The notes below the pieces were generated by a model. It saw only the letters and a list, made by a program, of their open reading frames with translations. It searched no databases and was not told where the DNA came from. A program made the translations under genes and the position numbers. From contig NZ_CP109427.1 of assembly GCF_036250695.1 (NCBI RefSeq), positions 62,001 to 126,000 of the forward strand: DNA of 64,000 bases. Direction: 5' to 3'. The stretch is from Streptomyces sp. NBC_01497. Its GTDB lineage: Bacteria; Actinomycetota; Actinomycetes; Streptomycetales; Streptomycetaceae. This document shows, piece after piece, positions 29,411-55,439 of this stretch (the first letter of the stretch is position 1; each line of letters starts with the position of its first letter).

Positions 29411-29414
29411 CATG

Positions 29415-30531: not shown

Positions 30532-30532
30532 C

Positions 30533-34377: not shown

Positions 34378-35046
34378 TCAGTTGCGGACACGTTCCTGAT
34401 GGCTGTGTTCCCGCAACTTTTCGGCGTGTCCGGTGACGGCGTCGAGACGGGCGGCCAGGTCGTTGTGGTCTGATCCGAGGTGCTGGCGGGTGTCGGCGAG
34501 CCGACTGATCAGGTGCGCCGGGTCGTTGTCGCCGAGTGCCTCCCCGAGGCGGTCGATGGGGGGCCTCGACCGGGCTGGGAGGTCCGTGAGGGCGGTGATC
34601 TGGCCGGCCAGCCGGCGCAGGGTCGCTGCGTTGTCCCGTGCCCAGGCGTTGACCGAGCGGTCGGCGGCGCGTCGGTTGCGCGTGGCGGTCACGCGCTGCT
34701 CGCCGGTGGTCCCGGTGGCGTCCGGTCGCCCGCGCAGGTAGCGGCGTTCGGCGGCCTGACGACTTGCGACGCCCAAGGGTGCGGCAAGGTCGGCCCAACT
34801 GGCTCCGCCTTCCCGGGCAGCCTCGATCAATCCGTTCTCCCAGCCCGCCAACTGCTCCCGAATCTCGCGGAGCAGCACGAGGGAGGCGAGGACATCCTCC
34901 GTGGTCGTCGCCGGATCATCGTCTTCCTGGGCCGCCTCACGCACGGTCCGTTCGATGACGCGGAGGGCTGTGACGGCCGCGTGGGCGGTCACCAGGGGTG
35001 GGTCTTCGACGCTCTCCGGAGCCCGGGGGCCTTCTGGTGCCGACAT
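34378..35046 (-). CDS. rheA: RheA-type hsp18 transcriptional regulator (copy 1)
   Basis: The 222-residue protein has a central segment ENGLIEAAREGGASWADLAA, PLGVASRQAAERRYLRGRPD, which fits an HTH (ASWADLAAPLGVASRQAAERR). Flanking helices are rich in Arg and Asp. It closely parallels the protein at 53363-54019 and the family annotated as HSP18 regulators in Streptomyces. In S. albus, RheA is a heat-sensing repressor of hsp18. The gene diverges from hsp18 across 126 bp holding the RheA-type operator. ATG 35046 has AAGGAGAG upstream. Autoregulation is expected. Confidence 0.85.
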   Translation of the reverse strand: MSAPEGPRAPESVEDPPLVTAHAAVTALRVIERTVREAAQEDDDPATTTEDVLASLVLLREIREQLAGWENGLIEAAREGGASWADLAAPLGVASRQAAERRYLRGRPDATGTTGEQRVTATRNRRAADRSVNAWARDNAATLRRLAGQITALTDLPARSRPPIDRLGEALGDNDPAHLISRLADTRQHLGSDHNDLAARLDAVTGHAEKLREHSHQERVRN

Positions 35047-35087
35047 ATTCTCTCCTTCTTTGTCGTCTGCTGGACGACCTCGATAGT

Positions 35088-35106
35088 TGTCATCCTTTGG
35101 ATGACA
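35088..35106. promoter_or_regulatory. RheA operator (TGTCATC-N5-GATGACA)
   Basis: TGTCATCCTTTGGATGACA is a perfect inverted repeat between divergent rheA and hsp18. It is the same form as the operator described for S. albus RheA, and it recurs at 54063-54081. Confidence 0.85.
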
Positions 35107-35172
35107 TGCTACAACAGTGGCAACGACCAGCGCATTGGCACTTGTTGCCTGGAGCTTCGGAGGTGTTCGACC

Positions 35173-35610
35173 ATGTTGATGCGCACTGACCCCTTCCGCG
35201 AGTTCGATCGTCTCGCCCAGCAGCTGATGGCCCCGGGGACCTGGTCCCGGCCGGCCTCGATGCCCATGGACGCCTACCGGGAGGGCGACACGTACGTGGT
35301 GGCGTTCGACCTTCCCGGCATGGCACCGGACGCGATCGACGTCGATGTCGAGGACACCGTGCTCACCGTCAAAGCGGAGCGGCGGCCCGCCGCGAAGGAC
35401 GATGTGGTGCGGATGGATCTCAGCGAGCGGCCACTCGGGGTGTTCTCCCGCAGCATCGTCCTCGCCGACAGCCTGGACACGGAGCACATTCACGCCGCCT
35501 ACGACGCCGGAGTGCTGACGCTGCGCATCCCCATCGCCGAGCGGGCGAAGTCACGCAAGATCACGGTCTCCGCCGGTGTGTCGTCCAGCCCGCGCCGGAT
35601 CACGGGCTAA
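35173..35610 (+). CDS. hsp18: Hsp20-family small heat-shock protein (copy 1)
   Basis: The 145-residue protein starts MLMRTDPFREFDRLAQQLMA. Its alpha-crystallin domain spans about residues 38-130 (MPMDAYREGDTYVVAFDLPG to the AYDAGVLTLRIPIAERAK signature), with a short C-terminal extension. It would act as an ATP-independent cytosolic holdase. The proposed operator lies 67-85 bp upstream of the ATG, and AGGTG precedes the ATG. Copy 2 at 54150 is clearly similar throughout. A strong hairpin follows the stop and a DUF2267 gene lies downstream. Confidence 0.92.
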   Translation: MLMRTDPFREFDRLAQQLMAPGTWSRPASMPMDAYREGDTYVVAFDLPGMAPDAIDVDVEDTVLTVKAERRPAAKDDVVRMDLSERPLGVFSRSIVLADSLDTEHIHAAYDAGVLTLRIPIAERAKSRKITVSAGVSSSPRRITG

Positions 35611-35645
35611 AGGCCTGGACGGGCCGCACGGGCCCCTGCCTCATC

Positions 35646-35689
35646 CCCCGTCGGCCCTTCGAAGAGAGGCTTCGAAGGGCCGACAGGGG
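35646..35689 (+). terminator. Hairpin terminator after hsp18 copy 1
   Basis: GTCGGCCCTTCGAAG pairs with CTTCGAAGGGCCGAC across AGAGG. The stem is extended by C-runs and G-runs beyond a one-base bulge. It begins 35 bp past the hsp18 stop, separating it from the DUF2267 gene. Confidence 0.75.
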
Positions 35690-35880
35690 CGGCCGGACCG
35701 AGGAAGGTGCCATAAGCGCGCGGCATCCGGGTACTGGTCCCAGAGAGAGCACGGGCTGTCGCGCACCCTGGTGGATCGCAGGAAAGAGTTCCGGCTCCCC
35801 CTCAGCAAGTCCCACGGCTCGGCTTTACCCGGCTGCAGGGACGGGCGTCTGGATACGATCAGAAAGGCTTGAGTCAAGCC

Positions 35881-36321
35881 ATGCGACACAGTGTTCCGGT
35901 AGTCGAGTTGAAGCCAACGATCAGCTTCGAGCAGATGCTGGAGCGCATCCGATACGCGGGCGCCTATCCCACGCGGGAACGCGCCGAGGAAGCTGTACGT
36001 CTGGTCCTCGGCGGGCTGGGCCGCCAGTTGGCCAGGCCGGAACGCGAGAAGCTCGCCGAGCGACTCCCCCGGCAAGCCGCACAGGTTCTCGCCGCGCAGG
36101 CCCCCGACCCCGAAGGTGAGCCCCTCACCGGTTGCGGCTTCGTCAAGGAACTGGCATCCCGCACCGACACCGCTCTCGCCCCCACCCGCTGGGATACAGG
36201 ATCGGTACTCACTGCCGTCGCCGCACTGGCCGGTCCCGAACTCCTCACCCACATCCTGGCCCAGCTCCCTACGGGCTGGGCGCTCCTCTTCGGCCGGCCC
36301 GAACTCAGACAGGCGGCCTGA
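35881..36321 (+). CDS. DUF2267 family protein (copy 1)
   Basis: The 146-residue protein has the DUF2267 pattern: FEQMLERIRYAGAYPTRERA, EEAVRLVLGGLGRQLARPER, EKLAERLPRQAAQVLAAQ and a second helical half (TAVAALAGPELLTHILAQLP). It is soluble and all-helical, of unknown function, repeatedly found beside Hsp20 genes in actinobacteria. ATG 35881 is used; the upstream TTG 35869 is possible. It is the third member of the rheA-hsp18-DUF2267 cassette, repeated at 55002. The copies match mostly in the YAGAYPTRERAE region and end. Confidence 0.85.
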   Translation: MRHSVPVVELKPTISFEQMLERIRYAGAYPTRERAEEAVRLVLGGLGRQLARPEREKLAERLPRQAAQVLAAQAPDPEGEPLTGCGFVKELASRTDTALAPTRWDTGSVLTAVAALAGPELLTHILAQLPTGWALLFGRPELRQAA

Positions 36322-36339
36322 ACAGCGGTGTCGTGAATG

Positions 36340-36590
36340 GCCGCAAGCCGCCGGGTCGTACACGAATTGAGCGTGTCCTTGAAGCCGGGGTCGTCGGTCA
36401 TGTTGTAGAGCCGGGCGGTCTGCAGGGCCGGCTCTGCTCCTCGGCGGCCACGTTGGCGCAGACGTCCGCCAGGAGGGTGCCGCCGGCAACGGAGTAGCGG
36501 CCGTTCCACAGGCAGCCATTGCTGTCTGCGGGCAGTGCCCCGCCACCGGCGATGATCGCCTGCTGCGGATCCGTGCCGCCCAGCACCGCG
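36340..36590 (-). pseudogene. Manganese catalase fragment
   Basis: On the minus strand VLGGTDPQQAIIAGGGALPA, DSNGCLWNGRYSVAGGTLLA and DVCANVAAEEQ are followed one frame over by TARLYNMTDDPGFKDTLN. These match the core of Mn-catalases (IVAGGG---DS-G-PWN--Y--ASGNLLAD---NV-AE-QGRLQ--RLY-MTDD-G-KD-L), including the dimanganese helix region. A frameshift lies near 36.44 kb, and the continuation IARDTMHQ is missing. The 5' side is cut by an IS5 remnant. Confidence 0.75.
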
Positions 36591-36705
36591 CCTTTCGACA
36601 AGGAGCGCTACAAGCAGCGCAACGTCGTCGAACGCTGCTTCAACACGTTGAAGCAGTACTGGGCCATCTCCGCACGCTACGACAAAAACCGCGAATCCTA
36701 ACGAA
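36591..36705 (+). mobile_element. IS5-family transposase C-terminal remnant
   Basis: The plus strand reads FDKERYKQRNVVERCFNTLK, QYWAISARYDKNRES, stop. The YK-RN-VERCFN-LKQ----A-RYDK word contains the catalytic E of IS5-family transposases. It abuts the Mn-catalase fragment, so an element of this family probably truncated that gene before decaying. A different IS5 subgroup from the copy at 15.9 kb. Confidence 0.75.
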
Positions 36706-37536
36706 AACAGCCATCACCATCGCGCCACTCCTCATGCGGGCATGGCCCGTTGAAGACAGCCCTGAGACGCCGTCGTCCCCACACCGTCACCGATTACGCG
36801 TGACCCGGGCATGGATGAGGCGCGACGGATGACCCAGGAGGGCGGATCAACGAGATGGCGAGCCGGCAGAGGGAGGCAGCAGGGTGGTCGCGCCGCAGCC
36901 GGCCGAGACAAAGCTGCTCGGCGGTTCGCACGGCGGGTCGAGAACGCCGGTTCCGTATACCTTCCGCGCTCTGCGCCACCCCTGCTGGCGCTACGAGCCC
37001 TGCAAGAGGAGAGTGTGCCCCCGCACGACACTCGCCACGGCTCCGTGGCCGAGGCCCCCGGCAAGCGGGCCGCCGTACATCCGCGCCGGGCCCTGTGGGG
37101 CCTCTCGTGCGCTGCCCGAGGCCACCCGCTACTGGTCACGCGTGACAGCGCATCCGCCTTGGCCTACCGGTTCGTGTGGATCCGCGTGCGCAACGGACCC
37201 TGCGCGGCCGGGCTGCGGACCTGCGCACTGTGGAACCATCGCCACGCTCTCCGGCGCGGTGAGCCCGAGGTCGGTTCCCGCGTGGCGAGACTCCGCCGAC
37301 CGAGGAAGAGTGGTTTTTGAACGGCAGACGCGCCGTGAAAATCACAAGAAACCTCGGGCGGAGCGCGGCGCGAACGGCTCGCGAACGCCGCCCCCGGCGG
37401 CCGTGCTGAGCGGCCCGCAGGGGACCGCGGAGAAAGACGCGGACACCGCGATCTTGGCGGGTGTGCCCGCGGAGCGAACACCTCGAATCCTCAAGGCCGG
37501 CGGCTGAGCGACCGCCGCCGCTCATCAGGGAGCGCC
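36706..37536. other. 830 bp without a supportable gene
   Basis: Long frames on both strands are Arg/Ala/Pro-rich with no recognisable motif. Immediately after the IS5 remnant the plus strand still shows a short IS5-like phrase (TAITIAPLLM). A promoter for the gene at 37537 may lie at the right end. Confidence 0.45.
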
Positions 37537-37857
37537 ATGACCAGCAAACGGCAGGACCCAGAGGGGGTCGACACACGCGGCAAGACCGTACCCCCTTACA
37601 AGGGGCGAAAAGAGGGGGGCCGCGTCAGGGGCCACAGTGAGTCGACGGAGAACGGCCCGCGCACTGGCGGTGCCACCGGCCCCGTCGAGGATGACGCGAT
37701 GAAGGCGCCGGATCCCGAGCGCACACCGGGGGGTGCGACCACCTCGCCGGCGCGTGAGAAGCCGGCCGGCGGTTCGCACCGCTCCCGGCGCGACCCCGAG
37801 AAGGGAACGGGGCCCGCGCACCAGCAGGGCGTACGCCGCGCGGAGGACCAGGGCTGA
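37537..37857 (+). CDS. Small hydrophilic protein of unknown function
   Basis: The 106-residue protein is highly charged and probably disordered: MTSKRQDPEGVDTRGKTVPP, YKGRKEGGRVRGHSESTENG, then GGATGPVEDDAMKAPDPERT. The DTRGK-VPPY-GR and GGATGPVEDD-MKAPDP phrases are what make it look like a real, conserved Streptomyces gene. There is no signal or membrane segment. GGGAG lies 6 nt before ATG 37537. The role is unknown; the composition resembles stress-associated hydrophilins. Confidence 0.65.
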   Translation: MTSKRQDPEGVDTRGKTVPPYKGRKEGGRVRGHSESTENGPRTGGATGPVEDDAMKAPDPERTPGGATTSPAREKPAGGSHRSRRDPEKGTGPAHQQGVRRAEDQG

Positions 37858-37983
37858 GTACGGCCCGCGGCAAGATGAACACACGACGTCCGCCAGGTCG
37901 TGGTACCCGGTCAAGAAGGCGGCGACCGGAGGAGTCGGGCCACCGTGGCACGGCCCGCGCGTGGTGCCCGTCGCCGTGAGGGG

Positions 37984-39801
37984 TCAGTCCGGGGCTCCCG
38001 GACGGTCCTGGCGCTGGTGGCGACCGGGCAGCATCTCCTGCACCTTGGCCTTGATGCCCTGGCGGACCATCCCGGTCCGGTCGGCGTCGCCATGCAGCAC
38101 GGCGGACGCGGCCGCTGCGATCTGGTCCAGCGAGGCGTGCGGCGGGATGGGCGGGACGGCCGGGTCGGTGCGGAAGTCGAGGACGAACGGCCGGTCCGCG
38201 GCAAGAGCGCGCTCCCAGGCGCCGCGCACCTCGTCCGGCTTCTCCACGCGGACGCCGTCCAGGCCGATGGAGCGGGCGAAGTCCGCGTAGGGGACGTCGG
38301 GCAGGCCCTGTGAGGGCAGGAACTGGGGGGCGCCCTCCATCGCGCGCATCTCCCACGTCACCTGGTTGAGATCCTGGTTGTTCAGGACCGCCACGACCAG
38401 CCGCGGGTCCTGCCAGTCCTGCCAGTACTTGGCGGCCGTGATGAGTTCGGCCATGTTGTTCATCTGCATGGCACCGTCGCCGACGAGGGAGATCGCGGGT
38501 CGTTCGGGATGGGCGAACTTGGCCCCGATGGCGTACGGCACGGCGGGGCCCATCGTGGCGAGGGTGCCCGAGAGCGACCCGCGCATGGCGCCCCGCAGCC
38601 GCAGATGTCGGGCGTACCAGTTCGCGGAGGACCCGGAGTCGGCCGAGATCATGACATTGTCGGGCAGCAGGTCGTCGAGTGCGTGCACGACATATTCGGG
38701 GTTGATCGGGACGGCGTCGACGGCGGCCCTGCGTTGCATGACCTCCCACCACCGGGCGGTGTCCTCCTCGATCTTCCTTCGCCACGAACCGTGTTTCTTC
38801 GGTTTCAGATAAGGAAGCAACGCGGCGAGGGTCGCGCGGGCGTCGCCCACGAGATTGACCTCGAACGGATAACGCAGGCCGATCATGAAGGGGTCGATGT
38901 CGATCTGCACGGCCCGGGCCTGGTCCAGGCCCGGCATGAACTGCGTGTACGGAAAACTCGAGCCGACCATCAGGAGTGTGTCGCAGCCCTGCATCAGCTC
39001 GTAGGAAGGGCGGGTGCCGAGCAGCCCGATCGCGCCGGTGACGTAGGGAAGCTCATCGGACAGAACGTCCTTGCCCAGCAGAGCTTTCGCGACCCCCGCG
39101 CTGAGGACGTCGGCGTACCGCTCCACCTCGGCGCGGGCTCCACGTGCGCCCTGGCCGATCAGGATGGCCACCTTCTCACCCGCGTTGAGCACCTCGGCGG
39201 CCCGTTCAAGGTCCGCGTCCTCCGGCACCGGCGCGGAGCGTCCGAGCCCGAGGCTGGAAGGGACCATCTTGAAGGCGTGCGTGGGTGGCGAGTAGTCGAG
39301 TTCCTGCACGTCGCCGGGGATGATGACGGCGGTGACGGTACGTTTGCCGTACGCGGTGCGCATCGCCCGATCGAGGACGTTCGGCAACTGCTCAGGGACG
39401 GTGACCATTTCGCAGAACTCAGCGGCCACGTCCTTGTAGAGACTCAGCAGGTCGACCTCCTGCTGATAGGAACCGCCCATGGCTGTTCGGTCGGTCTGGC
39501 CGACGATCGCGACCACAGGCACGTGGTCGAGCTTGGCGTCGTACAGACCGTTGAGCAGGTGAATGGCGCCGGGTCCCGACGTCGCCGCACAGACCCCCAC
39601 TCTGCCGGAGAACTTCGCGTAGCCGACCGCCTCGAATGCCGCCATCTCCTCATGCCGAGCCTGGACGAACCGGGGCTTGTTCCCGGCCCGCCCCCACGCG
39701 GCGAGCAGTCCGTTGATGCCGTCGCCCGCGTACGCGAAGACGTGCTCGACGTCCCACTCACGCAAGCGCTGGAGCACGTAGTCGGAGACCTTCATCGACA
39801 C
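37984..39801 (-). CDS. ThDP-dependent pyruvate oxidase / dehydrogenase-like enzyme
   Basis: The 605-residue protein has the three-domain ThDP layout. The Pyr domain has the catalytic glutamate in VQARHEEMAAFEAVGYAKFS and VCAATSGPGAIHLLNGLYDA. The central FAD-type domain has DADLERAAEVLNAGEKVAIL. The PP domain has SLVGDGAMQMNNMAELITAA, the GDG...NN metal site, near residue 440. The closest architecture is pyruvate oxidase/PoxB; acetolactate synthase-like alternatives are less likely. It would decarboxylate pyruvate to acetate (or acetyl-P). GTG 39801, six bases above ATG 39795, has GAGAGGAAG at good distance. Confidence 0.85.
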   Translation of the reverse strand: MSMKVSDYVLQRLREWDVEHVFAYAGDGINGLLAAWGRAGNKPRFVQARHEEMAAFEAVGYAKFSGRVGVCAATSGPGAIHLLNGLYDAKLDHVPVVAIVGQTDRTAMGGSYQQEVDLLSLYKDVAAEFCEMVTVPEQLPNVLDRAMRTAYGKRTVTAVIIPGDVQELDYSPPTHAFKMVPSSLGLGRSAPVPEDADLERAAEVLNAGEKVAILIGQGARGARAEVERYADVLSAGVAKALLGKDVLSDELPYVTGAIGLLGTRPSYELMQGCDTLLMVGSSFPYTQFMPGLDQARAVQIDIDPFMIGLRYPFEVNLVGDARATLAALLPYLKPKKHGSWRRKIEEDTARWWEVMQRRAAVDAVPINPEYVVHALDDLLPDNVMISADSGSSANWYARHLRLRGAMRGSLSGTLATMGPAVPYAIGAKFAHPERPAISLVGDGAMQMNNMAELITAAKYWQDWQDPRLVVAVLNNQDLNQVTWEMRAMEGAPQFLPSQGLPDVPYADFARSIGLDGVRVEKPDEVRGAWERALAADRPFVLDFRTDPAVPPIPPHASLDQIAAAASAVLHGDADRTGMVRQGIKAKVQEMLPGRHQRQDRPGAPD

Positions 39802-40585
39802 GGACTTCCTCTCGTAACGATCGGCCGGCGAGTCCGCGCCTGCGGAAATAGCGGCAGCTCAGGTGGGCAGTGCGGCGGCCGGCATCGACGTGTCGTGCCA
39901 GCAGAGCCAGGTCCCTCCGCCCAGGACACGGCGTGCCAGTGACCGAGGCAACGACGCGGCCTTCGCCCCGTCCACCTCCAACGTGTGGCACTCGCACACA
40001 GGGTGGGCCCACTCTGGCAGCTCGGTCACCGAACCCTCTGGCTGACACGCGCACGCAGTGCGCGACACACCAACCCCCTGAGCCCGTTGACCGACACCCC
40101 GCCCTTCCCCATACGGCCCCTGCCTGCCCGTGTGCCCCACGCGGCGGAACGGACGTTTCGGCGGTACACGGTGGGCAAAGCGCCAGATGCGGTGGGTGCA
40201 AGCCCACCGATCCCGGACGCGTCTCCTCGGTACCGCAACAGCAACCGCACTGATCAGCCGGCTCCGAACACGATCGGGCGGACGGGCTCTCAGTGATTTC
40301 GCGGTGACCCACCACTTCGCGGAGCGCATCCGATTTCGGGCTGAAGAGGGGCAGTGGCACATCATCCGACGGAGAAGCCTCGGTGCAGGGTCCCGACACG
40401 TTGATCCTCCTCGGTGTCCGTTTCGGCTGTGAGACAGAAAGCGGACCGACACAACCCATGCTGGGGCAGTCCGGGTGTGGGCGAAACGGCGGAAGCATTC
40501 CGGCAGTGAGTGAAGGGGACAGGCGGGGCGGGAAGACGTGTCGAGATGATCCCACGCGCACTGTCGACCGGACGGAGAACAGGCG
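39802..40585. other. 780 bp without a supportable gene
   Basis: Frames on both strands look non-coding. The segment must contain the promoters of the divergent pyruvate-oxidase-like gene and DUF2243 gene. The stretch near 40.3-40.5 kb is less GC-rich than its surroundings. Confidence 0.4.
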
Positions 40586-41152
40586 ATGGCCGGCACGGCA
40601 GACGAAGCCCGACCAGTTCTGGCGGTGCCGAACAGTCTGCAGTCGCCGGGGCTCATCCTCGGAGTGGGACTCGGTGGGTTCGTCGACGGCATCCTGTTGC
40701 ACCAGCTACTGCAGTGGCACCACATGCTCACCAGCACCAACCACGACCGCATCGGGGTGAAGTACTACAACCCGAAAACGGTGTCGGGACTGGAAATGAA
40801 CACGGTGTGGGACGGCATCTTCCACGCCGTGTGCTGGATCGCCGTCCTCCTGGGCCTGGCGATCCTCTATGCACGAGTCACGAACAATCGCCGGGCGGTG
40901 TGGGCCTCACGGGTGCTGTGGGGCTGGATTTTCGCGGGCTGGGGGCTGTTCAACCTGGTCGAGGGGATCTTGGACCACCAGATCCTGGGAATCCACCACG
41001 TCCACGGCGGCCCCTACCAGGCGTGGTGGGATGCCGGTTTCCTCGTCCTGGGCGGATCGCTCATCATCGGCGGTTACCTCCTCCAGCGCAGTGGCCGTCC
41101 CTTCGATCCTGACGCACCACACGGCTCCCGGCGTGCCGGAGGCCGGGCCTGA
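40586..41152 (+). CDS. DUF2243 membrane protein
   Basis: The 188-residue protein has four hydrophobic helices: SPGLILGVGLGGFVDGILLH, FHAVCWIAVLLGLAILYARV, VLWGWIFAGWGLFNLVEGIL and WWDAGFLVLGGSLIIGGYLL. Conserved histidine and aspartate groups occur in DGILLHQLLQWHHM, GIFHAVCW and VEGILDHQILGIHHVH, and could bind metal or haem. This is the DUF2243 pattern; the function is unknown. ATG 40586 is 3 bp after ACAGGCG. Its stop overlaps the start of the CtaG-like gene (TGATGG), so the two work together. Confidence 0.87.
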   Translation: MAGTADEARPVLAVPNSLQSPGLILGVGLGGFVDGILLHQLLQWHHMLTSTNHDRIGVKYYNPKTVSGLEMNTVWDGIFHAVCWIAVLLGLAILYARVTNNRRAVWASRVLWGWIFAGWGLFNLVEGILDHQILGIHHVHGGPYQAWWDAGFLVLGGSLIIGGYLLQRSGRPFDPDAPHGSRRAGGRA

Positions 41153-41988: not shown

Positions 41989-42054
41989 GCGATCCCGGGT
42001 CGTTCGCATCTGCGCCCGTCCCGGCATCCGAGCGAGGAGGGTCATCGGCTCGAC

Positions 42055-42151
42055 GATCACAGACGACCTCCAGGGGTCCTTCGATCAGGACCGGACCTTC
42101 GCGATCAACGATCACGCACCTGGCGCGGTCAGGTTCGGCACGGATGACCAC
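42055..42151 (-). pseudogene. N-terminal scrap of a CDGSH iron-sulfur protein
   Basis: The minus strand reads AEPDRARCVIVDREGPVLIE, GPLEVVCD, and then the frame is lost. REGPVLIEGP(V/L)EV is the start of small actinobacterial CDGSH-type (2Fe-2S) proteins. The cluster-binding C-C-...-D-H part is missing. The segment lies between the CtaG-like gene and transketolase, and the rest of 41.99-42.33 kb shows nothing else. Confidence 0.45.
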
Positions 42152-42326
42152 CAGCTCCTCGTCGGCGCCGATCAGGGCCTGGGCACGCAGCCATGGCAGC
42201 CGTCACGTGACCACGGGCCCGATCGGCGTCGGTGTCGTGTGCCCCTCCGGGAGACACGCCGGCTTGTCGTTCTGTGCCGTGGCAGTGCCTTTCGGGCTCG
42301 CTGGGTGGGAGGCGCGGGCGACGCGG

Positions 42327-44564: not shown

Positions 44565-44663
44565 CTGTTGCGGTGCTCCCTCAAGGGTGGGCGGTGGACG
44601 CTCGAACCGTACGGCCGGACCTGGCATGCAACATGGGGGCACGGTCCTGGGGCGGCAGGAGCG

Positions 44664-45329: not shown

Positions 45330-45429
45330 GTCCGCCGAGTACCCGCCGACCCGGTGCCCACACAGAGCCCGCGAGACGAGCGAGACGATCCTCGGCGCGG
45401 ACACCGGCTCCCGGCTCTCACTGATCGTT

Positions 45430-47527: not shown

Positions 47528-47645
47528 GTCGGGCTTCCTATTGGTTTGCCGATGAGTGTGCGGCCTAGTGTCGTCCATGTCAGGCCGCCGGTCCACCGGC
47601 GGCTCCATCCCGGTAAACCCGGGACGTTCAGGGAGCACACACGGC

Positions 47646-48341: not shown

Positions 48342-48390
48342 GCCATCCACCCGGCCGGCACACCACTCGCGAACATGGGAACACCCACTC

Positions 48391-48792
48391 ATGACAACGC
48401 CGAACCGCGGGTCGGACACCCCATGCCCCGCCCACCGCATCCCGTCCATCCCCGGCAGCAGACCCGCTGCCAGGCGTGCCGCGGTCAGGGTGGCAAGCCG
48501 CCCGCCGCGCGGCGGGCGGGGCCTCGCCCTCGCCCTCGGGCCGGGCGCGACGATGGTCTCGATGGTGCAGACGCTGACGGTGCCTGCCTCGGCACCTCCA
48601 GCAGGACCTGAACGCCTCGGCCACCGACATCAGCCGGCTCGCCACGGCGACACTGTTGCCCGGCGCCGTCGGCACGCCGCTGCTCAGCAGGCTGGGCGGC
48701 CGGCACGGCAGGCGGCAGGTCCTGCTCGCCGTGCTGGCCGTCACCGTGGCCGGGTCCGTGCTGGGCGCCCTCGCCGACAGTCTTCCTTTGCG
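48391..48792 (+). pseudogene. MFS transporter N-terminal fragment, frameshifted
   Basis: From ATG 48391 the frame gives a leader and LALGPGATMVSMVQTLTVP. Then a frame change near 48.59 kb leads to QQDLNASATDISRLATATLL, PGAVGTPLLSRLGGRHGRRQ and VLLAVLAVTVAGSVLGALAD. The last parts are helices 2-3 of a drug-type MFS permease with the GRxGRR loop between them. Nothing continues after about 48.79 kb, so the remaining 9-12 helices are lost. It was probably the third gene of the LysR/DJ-1 locus. Confidence 0.7.
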
Positions 48793-48799
48793 AAGTACC

Positions 48800-49262
48800 A
48801 CCTACATGGCGGTGAACCCACCTTGGGGATGTACAGCTCCATGCCAGCGGTCAAGGCGCACAGCACCAAGCCCTCGGCAGCCGGGCGGACAGGGGCGACC
48901 GACCGTAGAACTGCCTCTCCAGGTCAACCGTCGCTGCCACAAGCTCACTGACATGAAGCCGACACCTCGCGATGGTCCCTTGGGTCACTCGACCTGCTCG
49001 CGCCACGCCTACCTCGCCGTCGCCCGCGCAGGAGAACGCGACCGTCGTCCCGCATTCGATGCCCCCGCACCGCTCGCCTGCGACGAGATCGCCCCGGCGG
49101 AAACGCGTCAGGAGCGCCTCCGCGGTCGCCGGTGCGCCTGGCCTGTGCGCCTGGCCTGTGCGGTCAGCGGTCAGCGGTACGTACGCATCAGATAAGAGAG
49201 AGCGATTTTCCCGCACATGGCGCCGCCCAGCGGGGGCACACGGCGTTCCGGAGGTAATAACT
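48800..49262. other. 460 bp without a supportable gene
   Basis: No motif-bearing frame on either strand. The right end should carry the promoter of the small hydrophobic-protein gene (an AGATAAGAGAGAGCGATTTT stretch near 49.19 kb is less GC-rich). Confidence 0.4.
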
Positions 49263-49436
49263 ATGGTTCCCATTCTGCTCGTTCTTCTTCTCGCACTCAT
49301 TCTCGCCGGTGCGGGTTTCGCTCTGCACTTGCTGTGGTGGATCGCGATCATCGTCCTCGTCGTGTGGGCGCTGGGCTTCCTGATCCGCCCGGCCGCGCAC
49401 AGCGGTGGCAAGCGAAGCCGCTGGTACCGCTGGTAG
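49263..49436 (+). CDS. Small hydrophobic membrane protein
   Basis: The 57-residue protein has two adjacent transmembrane helices, VPILLVLLLALILAGAGFAL and HLLWWIAIIVLVVWALGFLI, followed by a basic tail GGKRSRWYRW. Such hydrophobic mini-proteins recur in Streptomyces genomes and are reminiscent of stress-induced small membrane proteins, but their role is unknown. GGAGG sits 8 nt before ATG 49263 and a perfect 38-nt palindrome follows the stop, both supporting a real transcription unit. Confidence 0.82.
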   Translation: MVPILLVLLLALILAGAGFALHLLWWIAIIVLVVWALGFLIRPAAHSGGKRSRWYRW

Positions 49437-49454
49437 AAGCGTCCATGCGCAGTG

Positions 49455-49492
49455 GTGAGGGCGGCCCACCGGATCCGGTGGGCCGCCCTCAC
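49455..49492. terminator. Perfect 38-nt palindromic terminator
   Basis: The segment from GTGAGGGCGGCCCACCGG to its complement CCGGTGGGCCGCCCTCAC is fully self-complementary, beginning 18 bp beyond the small membrane protein gene. It could terminate in both directions. Confidence 0.75.
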
Positions 49493-49499
49493 CATTTGT

Positions 49500-49990
49500 C
49501 TGTTTCCCCTCACGCAACGGGTGGGAGGCACGGTGTCGGGTAGTCGCAGAAGTGGCCGGGACGGCCCTCGTAGCAGCGATAGGGAACCGCTCCTCCAACG
49601 CGGCGGACGCCCTCGCGTATCCGGGCCTTGCCGGAAAGGCAGTTAATCGCATTTCCAACAAGGCCCGAAGCTCTGTTCAGGAATTGGTCGCCCGGGGGGC
49701 AAACGCCCATCCCGGTACGTCGGCAGACCGACCCCGCCGCTATTGGCGGGGTGACCGGAACACGGGCGTCGGCCATATTGACGGGCCCGCGAAAGTAAAC
49801 CGGTGGGGGCGCCTCGGGCCCCGGCGCCCTGTCAACCTCGTTGACCCGCCCTTCATCCCGGTCTCCGGCAGGACGGCCATCGGGGATGTCCACCACAGGC
49901 TCGACGGACGCCGACTCGTGCTCCACCGGGTCCGTTTGCCCACCTCTCCCCAGAACTGCTGGCTCATCCGCGTGCGTCCGCCACAGCTCA
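49500..49990. other. 490 bp without a supportable gene
   Basis: Both strands have long open frames, but none has a recognisable motif. The plus frame begins AGTALVAAIGNRSSNAADAL and becomes Arg/Gly/Pro-rich, so I treat them as GC-rich artefacts. Confidence 0.4.
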
Positions 49991-49996
49991 GCGTCA

Positions 49997-50044
49997 CACG
50001 CAGGGGTGGGGCCCGCTGGACTCGGCGGGCCCCACCCCTGCGTG
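49997..50044 (-). terminator. Long hairpin terminator after the sigma-factor gene
   Basis: CACGCAGGGGTGGGGCCCGC pairs perfectly with GCGGGCCCCACCCCTGCGTG across an 8-nt loop (20-bp stem), about 107 bp beyond the sigma-factor stop. Confidence 0.75.
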
Positions 50045-50150
50045 ACCCGACCTCCGCAGGCCCTGCCACTCTCACAGCGAACACTCGGTACCCGCGCTGA
50101 CCCGGACAACCGGGCAGGCGACCGGCCCTCCACGGTAACGAAGGGAGTAC

Positions 50151-51026
50151 TCACTGACAGGTGAGCAGGCCCGCGCGCAGCGTCTTGATCGCGCGAGCGA
50201 GGAGTCGGGAGACGTGCATCTGCGAGACGCCGAGCTCCTCACCGATCTGGGACTGGGTCATCTCCTCGACGAAGCGCATGTGCAGGATCCGACGATCGCG
50301 TTCACCGAGCTTGGCGATGAGCGGGGCGAGGGACGTGAGGTCCTCCACGAGTTCCATACCCGGATCGAGGGCGCCGGTGAACTCGGAAAGGCTGACGTTG
50401 CGGCCCCGGGCCCCGTCGCCGCTGTCGTAGGGCATGTCGAGGGATTCGCTGCTGTAGGCGTTGGCGGCGATGATGCCCTCGGCCACCTCCTCCTGCGGCC
50501 GCTTCACGTACGCGGCCAGCTCGGCGACCGACGGATCGCGATCCAGGCGCGCGTGCAGGACGTCACGGGCCTTGGCCAACTCCACCCGCAGCTCCTGCAG
50601 ACGCCGCGGGACGTGCACGTCCCAACTGGTGTCCCGGAAGAACCGCTTGATCTCCCCGACGATGTAGGGGATCGCGAAGGTGGTGAACTCTGTCTCGCGG
50701 GAGAGATCGAAGCGGTCAATGGCCTTGATCAGGCCGATCATGCCGACCTGGACCACGTCCTCCATCTGGTCCCTGCGGTGGAAACGCTTGGCGGCATAGT
50801 GGACCAGGGTCATGTTCATCTCGACGAGGGTGTTGCGCGCGTACGCGTACTCACGCGTCCCCTCCTCCACGCTCTGCAACCGGTCGAAGAACACCTTCGA
50901 CAGCGCACGCGCGTCGGACGGGGCGACCGCCTGGGGGTCCTCCACCCACGGCAGTTCACCCATCGTCAACACGGAGACGGACGTGGGGGCGGGATCGGGG
51001 GCGGGAAGAGCGGAGCCGGCAGACAT
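50151..51026 (-). CDS. RNA polymerase sigma factor of the SigB/SigF stress group
   Basis: The 291-residue factor has region 2 (MNMTLVHYAAKRFHRRDQME, DVVQVGMIGLIKAIDRFDLS, TEFTTFAIPYIVGEIKRFFR), region 3 (VPRRLQELRVELAKARDVLH) and region 4 (LGERDRRILHMRFVEEMTQS, QIGEELGVSQMHVSRLLARA). The wording of region 2 is that of the SigB/SigF/SigG group controlled by partner switching with HATPase anti-sigma and STAS proteins. No anti-sigma gene adjoins; the HATPase at 52450 and STAS protein at 30178 are candidates. ATG 51026 has GAGGAGG-like sequence upstream (AGGAGGTTCACCGT). Confidence 0.92.
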   Translation of the reverse strand: MSAGSALPAPDPAPTSVSVLTMGELPWVEDPQAVAPSDARALSKVFFDRLQSVEEGTREYAYARNTLVEMNMTLVHYAAKRFHRRDQMEDVVQVGMIGLIKAIDRFDLSRETEFTTFAIPYIVGEIKRFFRDTSWDVHVPRRLQELRVELAKARDVLHARLDRDPSVAELAAYVKRPQEEVAEGIIAANAYSSESLDMPYDSGDGARGRNVSLSEFTGALDPGMELVEDLTSLAPLIAKLGERDRRILHMRFVEEMTQSQIGEELGVSQMHVSRLLARAIKTLRAGLLTCQ

Positions 51027-51278
51027 ACGGTGAACCTCCTCAAACGCTGATCGGCGCTACCCCCGCTATCCCCCACACGGCCGAGTAAACCTGCCTCTTT
51101 CGCGAGGTCATCGACCCCGGGCCACCAGGCTTGCGGGCGCCGGGTGCCAGCCGCTGAAGCGTCCTGCGCGCAGCGGTCGAGGCTCACCCGGGACGCGGCC
51201 GCGCTCAGGCCTCCGGCCATCGTGCGTGTGCGGCAAGGAACCAAAGTGGCGGAGGCAAGGCCGCAGGTCCCAGCCGTA

Positions 51279-51617
51279 TCAGAGCGCGGTAGACGGGGCC
51301 TGGGCTTGAGCGGTGCGGTGGTGTTCGGCGTTGAGCCGCTGGGCTTCTGCTAGTTGGTCTTCGAGGATGACGATGCGGCAGGCGGCGTCGATGGGAGTGC
51401 CGGCGTCGACGAGTTCGCGGGCGCGGGCGGCGATGCGCAGTTGGTAGCGGGAGTAGCGGCGGTGCCCGCCCTGGGATGGCAGGGGTGTGATGAGGCGGGC
51501 CGCGCCGACGGCGCGCAGGAAAGCGGGGGTGGTGTGGAGTATTTCCGCGGCCCGGCCCATGGTGTAGGCGGGATAGTCGTCGTCATCGAGACGGCCGTAG
51601 GAGACCTCTGCTGCCAT
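51279..51617 (-). CDS. MerR-like helix-turn-helix regulator
   Basis: The 112-residue protein has the MerR winged HTH: YPAYTMGRAAEILHTTPAFL, RAVGAARLITPLPSQGGHRR, YSRYQLRIAARARELVDAGT. A short helix follows (RIVILEDQLAEAQRLNAEHH). The C-terminal effector domain is minimal and has no metal-binding cysteines. ATG 51617 has GAGAGGTG upstream. A strong hairpin sits 27 bp above the start, within the probable leader. The targets are unknown; it is next to the stress sigma factor in the same orientation. Confidence 0.82.
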   Translation of the reverse strand: MAAEVSYGRLDDDDYPAYTMGRAAEILHTTPAFLRAVGAARLITPLPSQGGHRRYSRYQLRIAARARELVDAGTPIDAACRIVILEDQLAEAQRLNAEHHRTAQAQAPSTAL

Positions 51618-51643
51618 CGCACCTCTCTCGTGGAACATGCGGA

Positions 51644-51674
51644 GGGGCCCTGGTGCCATTGGCACCAGGGCCCC
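51644..51674 (-). promoter_or_regulatory. Strong hairpin just upstream of the MerR-like gene
   Basis: GGGGCCCTGGTGCC pairs perfectly with GGCACCAGGGCCCC across ATT. Since no minus-strand gene ends nearby, it is either a leader hairpin (attenuator or processing site) or an orphan terminator. Confidence 0.5.
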
Positions 51675-51679
51675 GAAGG

Positions 51680-52440
51680 AACTGCTACACCATCCGCCGG
51701 CCCTCATACTGCGCCGGCCCTCTGTATCCGCACGACCGTCCGGGAGAGGACGGGGCATGCGGGGATCGCGGTTGCTTGACCGGAGACCACCCCACTATCG
51801 ATGTCCTGCGGTACCCGGGCTCTGGGACTCCGCCCGGGCGATCCTGATGGCGCTCAACTCCTCCGTTCTTCCCTCAGCGATCACGTACCTACTGCCGATA
51901 CTGCTGGTGATGCGTACTGCTCGGTGACCTGTGACAGCGCCACTCTTCGACAGCCAGCCCCGTCGCCCGTCGTGCATCTGCCCTGGCTTGGAACCCCACT
52001 GCCGAACCTCCCGGTGCGCGCGCCCGCAGCCGACGCCTTCACCAAGGTGCTGCTCTGTGACTTCACTGCTGGGTACTGCTGGGTACTGCTGAACCGCACT
52101 GCTACTGGCGGCGGCCCCTGATCACCGCGGGCCACCCGGTGCGGTCGTCAGTCCCGTCGCCGTCCTGCGACAACCCTGGCTTCGAAACTCCACCACCGCA
52201 CCGTCCTGCGTACTGCAACTGCTGCACAACTGCCCGCCAGTTCATCTCTGCCGGGCCCTCGCTCGATCTCGGCTACGAGAGAAACCATAACCACGCCCAC
52301 CCCCCAATGTCTACTCCAGCCGACACAGATTTCCCTTAGCCCAGCAGTGAGGCAATCGCGCTCCGCAAGGGTTGAGATTTGCCCCGGCAGGGCACAAACC
52401 GCGGGTACGCAGGGACAGGCACTGACGAACCAGAGACCAG
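51680..52440. other. 760 bp without a supportable gene
   Basis: No recognisable coding sequence. A 10-bp direct duplication (ACTGCTGGGT, 52072-52091) lies in otherwise unremarkable sequence. Near 52.28 kb the base composition becomes less GC-rich (GAGAGAAACCATAACCACGC), probably marking the promoter of the HATPase gene. Confidence 0.4.
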
Positions 52441-52449
52441 GGGGACCAG

Positions 52450-52842
52450 ATGGACACGATCTGCCGCAACACCACGGCCGTCCACTCCCCGGCCACCGTC
52501 GCCGACGCACGCGAGAGCACCCGAGGCTTCCTCGAAGCCCTCCAGCAGCCGGCCATCGCCTCCGATGCGGCCGACAGCGTCGTCCTGGTCGTCTCCGAAC
52601 TCGTCACCAACGCAGTTCGACACGGCGGCGGCACCTACACCCTCCACCTCACCGCCCACCCCGACCTCATCGAGGTCGCCGTCGACGACCCCAGCTCGCA
52701 GGCGCCGCGCATGCGCACCCCCGACCTGGACGGCGCAGGCGGAGGCTTCGGCTGGGGCATGGTCAACGACCTCGCCCACTCCACCAACGTGACCCACCGG
52801 CCATCCGGCGGCAAGACCGTCAGCGCCCTGCTCCCCCGTTAA
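52450..52842 (+). CDS. ATP-binding protein (HATPase_c_2, anti-sigma kinase-like)
   Basis: The 130-residue protein has the GHKL ATPase fold: N box VVLVVSELVTNAVRHGGGTY, G1-type VAVDDPSSQAPRM, and G2 GGGFGWGMVNDLAHSTNVTH. This is the RsbW-like serine kinase/anti-sigma class common in Streptomyces, which binds a sigma factor or phosphorylates STAS proteins. ATG 52450 follows GGGGGA at 5 nt. It lies 1.4 kb from the stress sigma factor, in the opposite orientation, and is followed by the 10-bp minisatellite. Partner assignment is by inference. Confidence 0.88.
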   Translation: MDTICRNTTAVHSPATVADARESTRGFLEALQQPAIASDAADSVVLVVSELVTNAVRHGGGTYTLHLTAHPDLIEVAVDDPSSQAPRMRTPDLDGAGGGFGWGMVNDLAHSTNVTHRPSGGKTVSALLPR

Positions 52843-52962
52843 AGCCAACGCCAAGGCGCCAACCCCGTTCACAGCAGATGGCGGGCGGTGGGGTGGATCC
52901 CCGTGAGCGTCTTCCAATGCCGTGAGGGCCATCGCGGCGACGCACCAAAGGCGACGCGCGTA

Positions 52963-53094
52963 CCGCGCCGGGCCGCGCCGGGCCGCGCCGGGCCGCGCCG
53001 GGCCGCGCCGGGCCGCGCCGGGCCGCGCCGGGCCGCGCCGGGCCGCGCCGGGCCGCGCCGGGCCGCGCCGGGCCGCGCCGGGCCGCGCCGGGCC
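52963..53094. repeat. Pure 10-bp minisatellite, about 13 copies
   Basis: The unit GGCCGCGCCG repeats 12 times exactly from 52971 to 53090, with partial units on each side. All copies are identical. It lies between the HATPase gene and the convergent rheA copy 2. All frames through it are open but cyclic (RAGPRRAAPG), so apparent genes there are artefacts. Confidence 0.95.
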
Positions 53095-53362
53095 ATGGAG
53101 CACATCAGCCAGAATGCGGCGGATTCGCGGGAACCGTCGCGATCACCTCCTCACTGGCGTACGCGCGCACGCCCATGACCACGAGGACGCGGGACTTCGT
53201 CCGGACAACCGGCGTTCGCAGCGTCCGCCGTCTCGGTGAGCTGCGACCGATCGCCCGGGAACGCACGCCGATCACGCCCCACCCGAGCGCCGGTCCACAG
53301 GTCATGAGCCGTGCTCGATGTGGCGGCGAGAGCGGGAAAGGCCCCGTAGCCGGCGGGCCGTG

Positions 53363-54019
53363 TCACCGGTGTGGGTGGCGTTCGTCCCCGCTGGCTTGGC
53401 GCAGGTCGTCGGTGTGGCGGGTGAGGGAATCCAGGCGGGCGGCCAGATCCGGGTGACTCGCGGCGAGATGCTCGCGGGTGGCGGCCAGAGGGGTAAGGAG
53501 TACGGCGACGTCGTCCTGGCCGAGTGCCCGCACGAGGGGCCGGCGGAATGCGTCCGGGAGATCGGTCAGGTCGCTGATCGCTCCGGCGAGCCGGCGTAGG
53601 TCGCCGGCGTTGCCTCGGGCCCACGTCGTGACGGTGCGTTCGGCGGCGCGGTGGTCGCGGGTGGCCTGGATACGCTGTTCGCCGGTACTGCCGGGGGCTC
53701 CGGGACGCAGGCGCAGATAGCGGCGTTCAGCGGACTGGCGGTTGGCGACGCCGAGGGGCTCGGCGAGGTCGGCCCAGCTCGCACCGGCCTCGCGGGCGGT
53801 TTCGATCAGGCCCGACTCCCAGCCCGCCAGCTGATCGCGCATCTGGCGCAGCAGCAGCAGCGCCGCCAGCACCTGGTCCGCCCCGGCTCCAGGTTCCGAC
53901 CGCCCGCCGGACCCCGACTGCTGGGCGGCGAGGACGGCGTCCTCGATCGTCTTCAAAGCCTCCTTGGCGGCCAGGAAGGAGGTGGGAGGGGGCGACGGGT
54001 CCTGGTCGGCCGCGGTCAT
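53363..54019 (-). CDS. rheA: RheA-type hsp18 transcriptional regulator (copy 2)
   Basis: The 218-residue protein parallels copy 1 in its core: LAGWESGLIETAREAGASWA, DLAEPLGVANRQSAERRYLR, LRPGAPGSTGEQRIQATRDH. It differs more at both ends. ATG 54019 has a near-perfect GGGAGG ribosome site. It diverges from hsp18 copy 2 with the TGTCATC-N5-GATGACA operator between them. By analogy with S. albus RheA it should repress hsp18 and itself until heat changes its conformation. The end adjoins the minisatellite region. Confidence 0.85.
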   Translation of the reverse strand: MTAADQDPSPPPTSFLAAKEALKTIEDAVLAAQQSGSGGRSEPGAGADQVLAALLLLRQMRDQLAGWESGLIETAREAGASWADLAEPLGVANRQSAERRYLRLRPGAPGSTGEQRIQATRDHRAAERTVTTWARGNAGDLRRLAGAISDLTDLPDAFRRPLVRALGQDDVAVLLTPLAATREHLAASHPDLAARLDSLTRHTDDLRQASGDERHPHR

Positions 54020-54062
54020 GAGCTACCTCCCTTTGTGTCACCCGACAGGCGACACCATCACT

Positions 54063-54081
54063 TGTCATCGTCTTGATGACA
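54063..54081. promoter_or_regulatory. RheA operator (TGTCATC-N5-GATGACA), copy 2
   Basis: TGTCATCGTCTTGATGACA is the same inverted repeat as at 35088-35106, with different spacer bases. The following ATGTTACAACAGG parallels ATGCTACAACAGT in copy 1, so operator and adjacent promoter are conserved. Confidence 0.88.
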
Positions 54082-54149
54082 TGTTACAACAGGAGCAGTC
54101 AACAGGGCACGGGCAAGAACAGCCCGATCGCACATGGAGGTGTTTTCTG

Positions 54150-54593
54150 ATGCTGATGATGCGCACCGATCCCTTCCGTGAGCTGGACCGGCTCACCCAG
54201 CAGCTTCTGGTGAACGGGTCGTCCGGCACCTGGTCGCGGCCCTCGGCGATGCCGATGGACGCCTACCGCGAAGGCGACGAGTACGTCATCGCCCTCGATC
54301 TTCCCGGCGTCGACCCCGAGGCGATCGACATCGACGTCGAGCGCAACATGCTCACCGTCAAGGCCGAACGCCGCCCCGCCGCCAACAGCGACGAGGTCCA
54401 CAGGGAGCTCTCCGAGCGCCCCCTCGGCGTCTTCTCACGCCAGGTCATGCTGGCCGACAGCCTGGACACCGAGCAGATCAACGCCGGCTATGACGCAGGT
54501 GTCCTCACCCTGCGCATCCCCATCGCCGAACGCGCCAAGCCCCGCAAGATCTCCATCACCCCCGGCTCACAGCGCAAGGCCATCCGCGGCTGA
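54150..54593 (+). CDS. hsp18: Hsp20-family small heat-shock protein (copy 2)
   Basis: The 147-residue protein starts MLMMRTDPFRELDRLTQQLL. The alpha-crystallin domain is from MPMDAYREGDEYVIALDLPG to NAGYDAGVLTLRIPIAERAK, ending PRKISITPGSQRKAIRG. Long stretches are identical to copy 1 (RTDPFRE, MPMDAYREGD, LSERPLGVFSR, AGVLTLRIPIAERAK), while spacing around residues 22-28 differs. GGAGGT precedes the ATG. A GC-rich hairpin follows and then the DUF2267 gene. It would act as a cytosolic holdase under RheA control. Confidence 0.92.
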   Translation: MLMMRTDPFRELDRLTQQLLVNGSSGTWSRPSAMPMDAYREGDEYVIALDLPGVDPEAIDIDVERNMLTVKAERRPAANSDEVHRELSERPLGVFSRQVMLADSLDTEQINAGYDAGVLTLRIPIAERAKPRKISITPGSQRKAIRG

Positions 54594-54613
54594 AACCCAG
54601 CCTCAAAGCCACA

Positions 54614-54657
54614 GCGGAGGACGGGCCCCTCTCCTCGTCCCAAGGCCCGTCCTCCGC
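54614..54657 (+). terminator. Hairpin terminator after hsp18 copy 2
   Basis: GCGGAGGACGGGCC pairs perfectly with GGCCCGTCCTCCGC across a 16-nt loop, 21 bp beyond the hsp18 stop. The same hairpin opens the decayed copy at 28415. Confidence 0.75.
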
Positions 54658-55001
54658 ACCCCTCCCGCCAGTCCCCCGGGGAAGATGACCCTCGGGCACG
54701 GCGGTTCGCAGCCCTCAGGCAAGAGCAGGACCCGGCGGGCACTACAGAGCCCGCCCGCCGAATCCGCCGCGGCCCTCCGGCCCGTTCACCGCGAAGGGTC
54801 CGTTCAGGATCCGCCGGCACGAGACGAGAAAAATGCCGACCGCGCCTCCGAACATCGACGCTTGACTCAGCTCGTTGCGCCAACCCGCCGGGCAACCACT
54901 CCCCCGCGGCAAGCTGCCCCGCACCGCTCCGGGGCCGGCCCAGGCCGCTGCCGCACATGCCCCACGTCCCCCGCCGAACACCGCGAAAGGCCCACCCTCC
55001 G

Positions 55002-55439
55002 ATGCAGCTCACCTCTCAGCAGGCCCCGAGCGAAACGACCATGTCGTACACGCAGATGCTGGAACGCGTCCGCTACAACGGCGCCTACCCCACCCGCGAA
55101 AGAGCCGAGGCCGTCACGGCTGATGTCCTGACCGCCCTCGGACGCCAACTCACCCACCACGACCGCGTCGACCTCGCGGCCCATCTCCCCCACGAAGCCG
55201 CACGGATCCTCACCGCGCAAAACCCCGGAACGCAGACGCAGTCCCTCACAGGCTGGGCCTTCGTCAAGGACCTCGCCACCCGCACCGGCGGAACCCCCGC
55301 CACCACCCGCTGGGACGTCGGCTCCGTCCTGGGCGTCGTCGCCCACCTCGCCGGCCCCACCGTCGACCACATCCTCACCCACCTCCCCTCCGGCTACGCC
55401 ATCCTCTTCGGCCGCGCCGAACTCCTCCAAGCCGCCTGA
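55002..55439 (+). CDS. DUF2267 family protein (copy 2)
   Basis: The 145-residue protein reads SYTQMLERVRYNGAYPTRER, AEAVTADVLTALGRQLTHHD, RVDLAAHLPHEAARILTAQN, then GWAFVKDLATRTGG and a final helix ending FGRAELLQAA. It is all-helical, soluble, of unknown function. ATG 55002 is taken; ATG 55041 directly before SYTQML is equally plausible. It is the downstream member of cassette 2, 400 bp after hsp18. That gap (54.66-55.0 kb) shows no gene and partly matches the decayed copy at 28.4 kb. It shares the GAYPTRERAE and FGR-EL-QAA words with copy 1. Confidence 0.85.
   Translation: MQLTSQQAPSETTMSYTQMLERVRYNGAYPTRERAEAVTADVLTALGRQLTHHDRVDLAAHLPHEAARILTAQNPGTQTQSLTGWAFVKDLATRTGGTPATTRWDVGSVLGVVAHLAGPTVDHILTHLPSGYAILFGRAELLQAA

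Follow-up and report, generated by a model that had tools for sequence, protein, structure and literature searches.

DUF2267 genes as regular neighbours of RheA-linked hsp18 in Streptomyces: two cassettes of strain NBC_01497 and a proposed heat-shock operon

The stretch of DNA analyzed here (the window, 64,000 nucleotides) comprises bases 62001-126000 of an 8.55-Mb contig of Streptomyces sp. NBC_01497 and carries two cassettes, A (34378-36321) and B (53363-55439), each of which consists of a gene for a RheA-type repressor (rheA), an operator (rheO), a divergently oriented small heat-shock gene (hsp18), and a gene of the DUF2267 family (Table 1). The initial annotation of this DNA had described three-gene cassettes at both positions, and this description is borne out, with the Hsp20 and DUF2267 domains above their Pfam cut-offs in both copies. 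In alignments of A with B, RheA is 57%, Hsp18 71%, and the DUF2267 protein 54-56% identical. Both Hsp18 proteins pass the Pfam cut-off of the HSP20/alpha-crystallin family and neither matches an NCBIfam equivalog model at its cut-off, while no Pfam or NCBIfam match was found for either copy of RheA. Relatives of rheA-B are 72% (S. violens), 73% (another Streptomyces), and 89% (a metagenome contig) identical.

Table 1. Features of the two cassettes and of a relict third cassette, in window positions
Feature	Position	Strand	Remarks
rheA-A	34378..35046	-	RheA-type repressor, 222 aa; 57% identity to rheA-B
rheO-A, TGTCATCCTTTGGATGACA	35088..35106	.	inside hsp18-A promoter spacer; -35 TTGTCA 35087-35092, -10 TACAAC 35110-35115
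hsp18-A	35173..35610	+	small heat-shock protein; Pfam HSP20 72 bits, cut-off 20.8
Hairpin 3' of hsp18-A	35645..35689	+	strong; sequence differs from the recurrent stem of other cassettes
DUF2267 gene, cassette A	35881..36321	+	Pfam 68.8 bits, cut-off 29.8; D2 profile 200.9 bits, D1 profile 82.4 bits; tree
rheA-B	53363..54019	-	RheA-type repressor, 218 aa; groups with S. violens/S. ochraceiscleroticus
rheO-B, TGTCATCGTCTTGATGACA	54063..54081	.	-35 TTGTCA 54062-54067, -10 TACAAC 54085-54090
hsp18-B	54150..54593	+	small heat-shock protein; Pfam HSP20 73.4 bits, cut-off 20.8
Hairpin 3' of hsp18-B, GCGGAGGACGGG..CCCGTCCTCCGC	54614..54657	+	stem found again in other cassettes
DUF2267 gene, cassette B	55002..55439	+	Pfam 79 bits, cut-off 29.8; D2 profile 215.8 bits, D1 profile 78.5 bits
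Relict third cassette	28415..28963	+	hairpin piece, D2 piece, downstream flank; blastn, related to B

In both cassettes, the palindrome TGTCATC-N5-GATGACA sits within the 17-bp spacer of the hsp18 promoter, TTGTCA-N17-TACAAC, and the half-sites are identical, as the initial annotation had stated. The exact palindrome occurs at four sites in the 9.08-Mb genome, all of which belong to cassettes A and B or to the counterparts of these in the opposite chromosome arm. Across a first sample of 41 Streptomyces genomes, the window's own included, rheO with its TTG is found at 34 sites, 33 of which adjoin rheA or a piece of it, and the reversed control pattern is found at none. The same operator-promoter layout recurs in 74 related loci picked for TTG-rheO, where the -10 element reads TACAAC in 61 and TACAAG in 11. 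The arrangement resembles the RheA-hsp18 system of S. albus and S. albidoflavus J1074, for which parts of PMC11754652 describe divergent rheA and hsp18 genes with the operator in the intergenic region. The window cassettes share with that system a repressor gene divergent from the small heat-shock gene and an inverted-repeat operator that lies between the two and overlaps the promoter, the latter as judged from the window and related loci. The window RheA is also homologous, as judged by 63% identity to the S. albus NRRL B-1811 locus.

The RheA block GASWADLA.PLGVA.RQ.AERRYLR, present in both copies, is almost invariant in 16 aligned relatives and is a putative DNA-contacting part. Because this block is nearly invariant and the half-sites are identical, cross-control between RheA-A and RheA-B is probable. 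An arrangement that would fit control in trans is found in genome G037, where a second hsp18 has a perfect rheO and profile searches find rheA only as a short piece. The RheA-B structure model is all-helical and of middling confidence; a fold search with this middling model returned no PDB match better than E 2.8, and a sequence search of the PDB with RheA gave nothing significant.

The place of DUF2267 beside hsp18, regarded as fixed in the initial annotation from two copies, proves to be a property of the genus, and the comparison with other Streptomyces genomes suggested there finds the three-gene neighborhood conserved. The 41 genomes contain 68 HSP20 and 83 DUF2267 matches; a same-strand DUF2267 gene lies within 2 kb downstream of 37 of the 68 hsp20 genes, and 49 of the 83 DUF2267 genes are so placed. 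Where hsp20 has a divergent rheA, DUF2267 follows in 26 of 28 cases (11 of these with two DUF2267 genes), compared with 11 of 40 where rheA is absent. Without the four cassettes of the window genome, the rheA-linked proportion is 22 of 24, and in one of the two exceptions (L245, genome G035) pieces of a DUF2267 gene of the D1 type described below are found in two frames, as expected of a broken gene. The rheA-linked counts omit as weak 24 of 67 RheA-model rows, none of which lies less than 17 kb from an hsp20 match, and they count each of the near-identical cassettes that genome G032 carries on several contigs, perhaps through an assembly effect. In the window genome, a third, distant hsp20 (L243, G000:C1:1046649-1047715) is also followed by DUF2267, as are all five of its hsp20 matches.

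A second collection, with named species, yielded 80 rheA loci, the best of 483 relatives and therefore a selection that leans towards close kin. Here hsp18 is present in 76 loci, DUF2267 in 73 of these 76, and two or more DUF2267 genes in 43, and the contig breaks off shortly after hsp18 in two of the three hsp18 loci that lack DUF2267 (L176 and L190). The locus of S. albus NRRL B-1811, a strain of the species that gave the original description of RheA, is among the best rheA loci and has hsp18 and the same type of operator. Proteins encoded within 2.5 kb on the flanks are common to only 16 of 2080 locus pairs beyond DUF2267 and 34 of 2080 beyond rheA (65 loci with 2.5 kb on both sides); because so few pairs have common flanks, the gene unit is seen to be kept while its surroundings change.

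In its full form, the module reads rheA, rheO, hsp18, D1, D2, where D1 and D2 are DUF2267 paralogues in a fixed order. A tree of DUF2267 splits the linked proteins into D1, which adjoins hsp18, and D2, which comes after D1, with support of 88/79 on the D2 side; the tree has few columns and some long branches, and two of its rows (own1039 and own536) are wrong-strand, the split being independent of them. The D1 and D2 profiles are more than 120 bits apart in every member, and the median isoelectric point is 4.7 for D1 (acidic) and 6.3 for D2 (nearly neutral). As the hsp18-D1 and D1-D2 gaps of the full form are mostly below 120 nt, separate promoters have little room there. The two DUF2267 genes of the window belong to D2, nothing D1-like is found among the other DUF2267 genes of the window genome, and neither tblastn nor profile searches detect a D1 remnant in the hsp18-DUF2267 gaps of the window. 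Where DUF2267 is present as a single gene, it is D2 in 29 of 32 cases, and these 32 include both window genes. Decay of D1 is in progress in G009 (L244) and in G035 (L245), where the gene lies in two frames, and at a further locus (L241) D2 is intact and stands next to what is left of D1 and rheA. Reduction of a rheA-hsp18-D1-D2 unit is, from such sequence comparisons, the best reading of the window cassettes.

Loci with rheA and an intact rheO and without hsp18 were also noted (L156 and L166). In L166, a gene for a LigT-like phosphoesterase stands beside rheA, and since the same gene stands after hsp18 in L171, hsp18 may have been lost.

The AlphaFold model of DUF2267-B (mean predicted local distance difference test score, pLDDT, 87.4) has the fold of TTHA1432 of Thermus thermophilus (2ysk), a member of the DUF2267 family (PF10025), at about 20% identity, a result that applies to copy B only; D1 and D2 form hsp18-linked Streptomyces subfamilies by comparison. 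In sequence searches of the PDB with DUF2267, 2ysk is the only match and a weak one (E 0.28), and another DUF2267 protein of the window genome reaches E 0.0016 against it, with single stretches not significant. A weak match of DUF2267-B to Cas4c in an anti-phage library, at 16 bits only, was ignored.

The pairing of hsp18 with DUF2267 is not tied to one form of control. In seven loci (L232-L238), an hsp20-DUF2267 pair that lacks rheA is preceded by a conserved promoter and leader of another kind, and the hsp18 leader of all seven has a fixed GTAGGGCATCGCA. Five of these loci (L233-L237) have a divergent, conserved small gene of about 100 codons with no Pfam match. The hsp18-DUF2267 pair therefore holds under two control systems.

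The initial annotation also placed a terminator hairpin between hsp18 and DUF2267. The hairpins are indeed there in both cassettes; a T-run is absent directly 3' of either, so that neither has the hairpin-plus-T-run form of a rho-independent terminator. A terminator scan gave no site on the plus strand after the window hsp18 genes, although with loops limited to 8 it would have passed over the B hairpin in any event. The core of the B stem recurs exactly in 25 of 73 cassettes of the second collection and in exact or similar form (loose pattern) in 50 of 73, at most 100 nt from the hsp18 stop codon. Within the 41 genomes, the exact pattern is confined to 13 sites in seven genomes, 11 of which adjoin hsp18 or D1, the other two being the relict cassette of Table 1 and its twin. 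The stem is specific to the hsp18 unit without being universal.

Pairing in this stem was examined in an alignment (A7) of 40 of the 44 loci with a short gap (L162, L163, L203, and L219 being left out) together with the window B hairpin. In these 41 sequences, 95.9% of cells pair, compared with 42-62% when the alignment is slid, and double-sided changes affect 12 cells compared with 2.3 in shuffles; shuffles still reach 93.3% pairing, and pair types are not unusually numerous (61 of 500 shuffles have as many). As the sequences are related, the pattern may be taken as support for the stem rather than proof. The hsp18 stop codon and the DUF2267 domain match are no more than 68-124 nt apart in the 44 loci with a short gap, and for this reason expression of DUF2267 by read-through would be the simplest reading there. 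A possible RNA thermometer, in which the loop pairs with the ribosome-binding site of D1, was considered and rejected, since native pairs performed no better than permuted ones (fraction 0.39, 40 loci), and an Rfam search of the related loci L219, L159, L211, and L240 returned tRNAs only.

When these results are placed beside what is known of RheA, a mechanism can be proposed. In the account given in parts of PMC11754652, RheA is an autoregulated repressor of hsp18 at low temperature and is reversibly released on heating. The layout of both window cassettes agrees with this account. At normal temperature, RheA, probably as a dimer because the operator is palindromic, would bind rheO and repress both rheA and hsp18, because rheO fills the hsp18 promoter spacer and lies between the two genes. 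Heat would reversibly inactivate RheA, as the literature describes, and RNA polymerase could then transcribe hsp18. The hairpin just 3' of the hsp18 stop might end, trim, or protect part of the transcripts, and those that read on would yield D1 and D2, or D2 only in the window genome. The DUF2267 proteins, helical and with the TTHA1432 fold, may then act with Hsp18 as partners that tune its assemblies or pass on its clients; such a partnership is the simplest guess. In this scheme, gene order, operator, promoter layout, hairpin, conservation, and the absence of D1 are read from sequence and heat sensing is taken from the literature, while read-through, joint action, and cross-control are what we infer. 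Overall, we consider it reasonably probable that the cassettes represent a heat-shock operon under RheA control to which DUF2267 regularly belongs, acting alongside Hsp18. It could further be speculated that D1 and D2 are a dedicated pair of partners of Hsp18, co-chaperones of a novel type produced together with it from one heat-switched operon, with the recurrent hairpin setting the ratio and the pair fixed in Streptomyces from a widespread family, an extension that we put forward tentatively and would not yet expect to hold.

Several observations weigh against an operon of this kind, and a number of them would suit a different explanation, in which DUF2267 rides along in a relocating stress module inherited as a block, is expressed from a promoter of its own, and has a function with no connection to Hsp18 or heat. 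Within the 41 genomes, 29 of the 68 hsp20 genes lack rheA and DUF2267 alike, and 34 of the 83 DUF2267 matches, some at contig ends, are not downstream of hsp20. In a sample of 78 non-Streptomyces genomes of the phylum, all 29 DUF2267 matches are more than 2 kb from any HSP20 match, with a smallest distance of 3.1 kb, middle to middle; this count mostly omits hsp20 rows for genomes without DUF2267 and misses one weak row (G101:C26), with no effect, as the contigs concerned have no DUF2267. The initial annotation had raised the case of DUF2267 genes being equally frequent without hsp18, and such genes predominate outside the genus and do not within it, so that the link to hsp18 characterizes hsp18-type DUF2267 within Streptomyces and not the whole family. 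For TTHA1432, the Thermus protein with the DUF2267 fold, the relevant part of PMC5597230 lists an operon shared with a fatty acid-CoA ligase rather than with a chaperone. Relatives of RheA also occur on plasmids: 70 plasmid records give a match, which in 19 spans 80% or more of the RheA length, and three plasmids that were examined carry rheA and hsp20 with two DUF2267 genes (two plasmids) or one (the third); the linkage could partly reflect joint transfer, and the nearly universal difference in flanks would agree with relocation, as would a lone D2 far from the cassette of its genome (L249). D1 is often lost or broken. The hsp18-DUF2267 gaps of the window are long, at 270 nt (A) and 408 nt (B), and given this length, the window DUF2267 genes may have a promoter of their own; a sigma-70 scan found none in the gaps, with a chance expectation that is also none and no sensitivity to other promoter types. 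A passenger role is nevertheless unlikely in our view, as the genes stay adjacent and in the same order under two types of promoter, the spacing of the full form is operon-like, and where hsp18 is missing between rheO and D1 (rheA-rheO-D1 in L240), D1 stands directly on rheO.

The hairpin and the regulatory part of the proposal face objections of their own. The recurrent stem is absent or altered in many cassettes, A among them, as the counts given above make clear, and hairpin strength was rejected as evidence, because control stretches of 100 nt after the last DUF2267 gene give a median best of -27 kcal/mol, nearly as strong. If the hairpin were instead a full terminator, DUF2267 would never be expressed from the hsp18 promoter; the strong stems and the base changes that keep pairing could be cited for this, and we nonetheless hold it to be quite improbable, given the missing T-runs in the window and the short-gap form, which is mostly filled by the hairpin and the ribosome-binding region and leaves a second promoter short of room. 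In S. albus, RheA, HrcA, and HspR do not cross-regulate, according to a part of PMC11754652, which tempers the idea of cross-control, although it concerns other repressors. DUF2267 might also regulate the circuit itself and provide feedback through an effect on RheA, for instance as anti-repressor or co-repressor. The persistence of the hsp18-DUF2267 pair at seven loci without rheA argues against this, a structural match of DUF2267 to integration host factor (IHF), of the IHF/HU group of DNA-bending proteins, falls below the level that the tool considers meaningful for helical folds, and we regard such a role as very doubtful. The heat-shock operon with DUF2267 as a regular member is the reading that we consider most likely.

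The relationship between the two cassettes bears on how this operon came to be present twice, and here the duplication proposed in the initial annotation is probably wrong. A tree built from RheA and Hsp18 places B together with S. violens and S. ochraceiscleroticus at a Shimodaira-Hasegawa-like approximate likelihood ratio test (SH-aLRT) value of 96, or 98 when D2 is added, within larger supported sets that exclude A, and in the DUF2267 tree A and B fall in different starred sets. The trees of RheA, Hsp18, and D2 are quick searches, and A is a long branch whose placement is unsure. Forcing A and B to be sisters costs 23.4 and 39.8 log units, and the approximately unbiased (AU) test, with p values of 0.0575 and 0.0625, leaves that arrangement standing at the 5% level. 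An old tandem duplication inside the window lineage, with which these p values, the long branch of A, and a distance of 19 kb between the cassettes would agree, is improbable in the light of the groupings of B; rather, A and B are probably separate lineages that arrived separately, an origin that is favoured and, with the AU test borderline, not proven. Since two cassettes of the S. violens type keep D1, it follows that, if the trees are right, B would have lost D1 after its split from these, and A would have lost its own D1 independently.

Both cassettes are present in further copies, because the window lies within the terminal inverted repeat of its contig, and each cassette thus occurs twice, giving four intact copies in the chromosome. 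The stretches compared between the contig ends, which lie outside window 15979-33978 and contig 20001-62000, are 99.97-100% identical up to window base 60658, and the repeat would measure about 122.7 kb if continuous. It stops just past a pair of IS21-type transposase genes (window 58388-60597), which may have made the junction. Pieces of the relict third cassette are 79, 87, and 81% identical in blastn to B at 54614-54742, 55188-55286, and 55456-55798. In DNA, the relict resembles B more closely than A does (70-73%), and it is broken whereas A is whole in all three genes. The ratio of nonsynonymous to synonymous substitution (dN/dS, NG86) is below 1 for all three genes, both between A and B (0.24-0.54) and between B and S. 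violens (0.28-0.39). Because these ratios are below 1 while the B-related relict has decayed, there is good evidence, at the level of sequence, that A and B are maintained by selection, in line with what the initial annotation had supposed.

Control of hsp18 by RheA is already known, and what is new, within the literature searched, is the DUF2267 part, its two paralogues, and the hairpin. Relative to the system as described, the conserved unit extends to DUF2267, also in S. albus, whose locus (L219) has two such genes, and the window genome carries a pair of cassettes, each present twice owing to the terminal inverted repeats. The term "DUF" is absent from the main text of PMC11754652 (the supplement was outside the search), and the literature searched, whose scope did not extend to older subscription papers on RheA, contains no link between DUF2267 and heat shock and no account of the DUF2267 part; a part of PMC4500146 names DUF2267 only as an example of protein naming. 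As DUF2267 is a family without known function, its place in a proposed heat-controlled operon makes a role in heat stress testable, and the fact that the operon has already been cloned as a gene switch offers a direct route to that function. For those who engineer RheA switches, it may be relevant that the native unit continues beyond hsp18.

Many RheA relatives carry the name "type III effector protein" in public records, others, some of them on plasmids, being named "HSP18 transcriptional regulator"; the former is likely a labelling error, and it hides many relatives of RheA. In genome G037, a perfect rheO lies about 50 nt 5' of a DUF6098 gene (L239 2088-2570, G037:C5) with neither rheA nor hsp18 nearby, and this gene is a possible further target of RheA. 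In the window itself, genes for a sigma factor with regions 2, 3, and 4 (50151-51026) and a small HATPase, anti-sigma-like protein (52450-52842) adjoin cassette B, a SpoIIE-type phosphatase is encoded at 30533-31825, and a short tandem repeat with a period of about 10 bases occupies 52963-53094.

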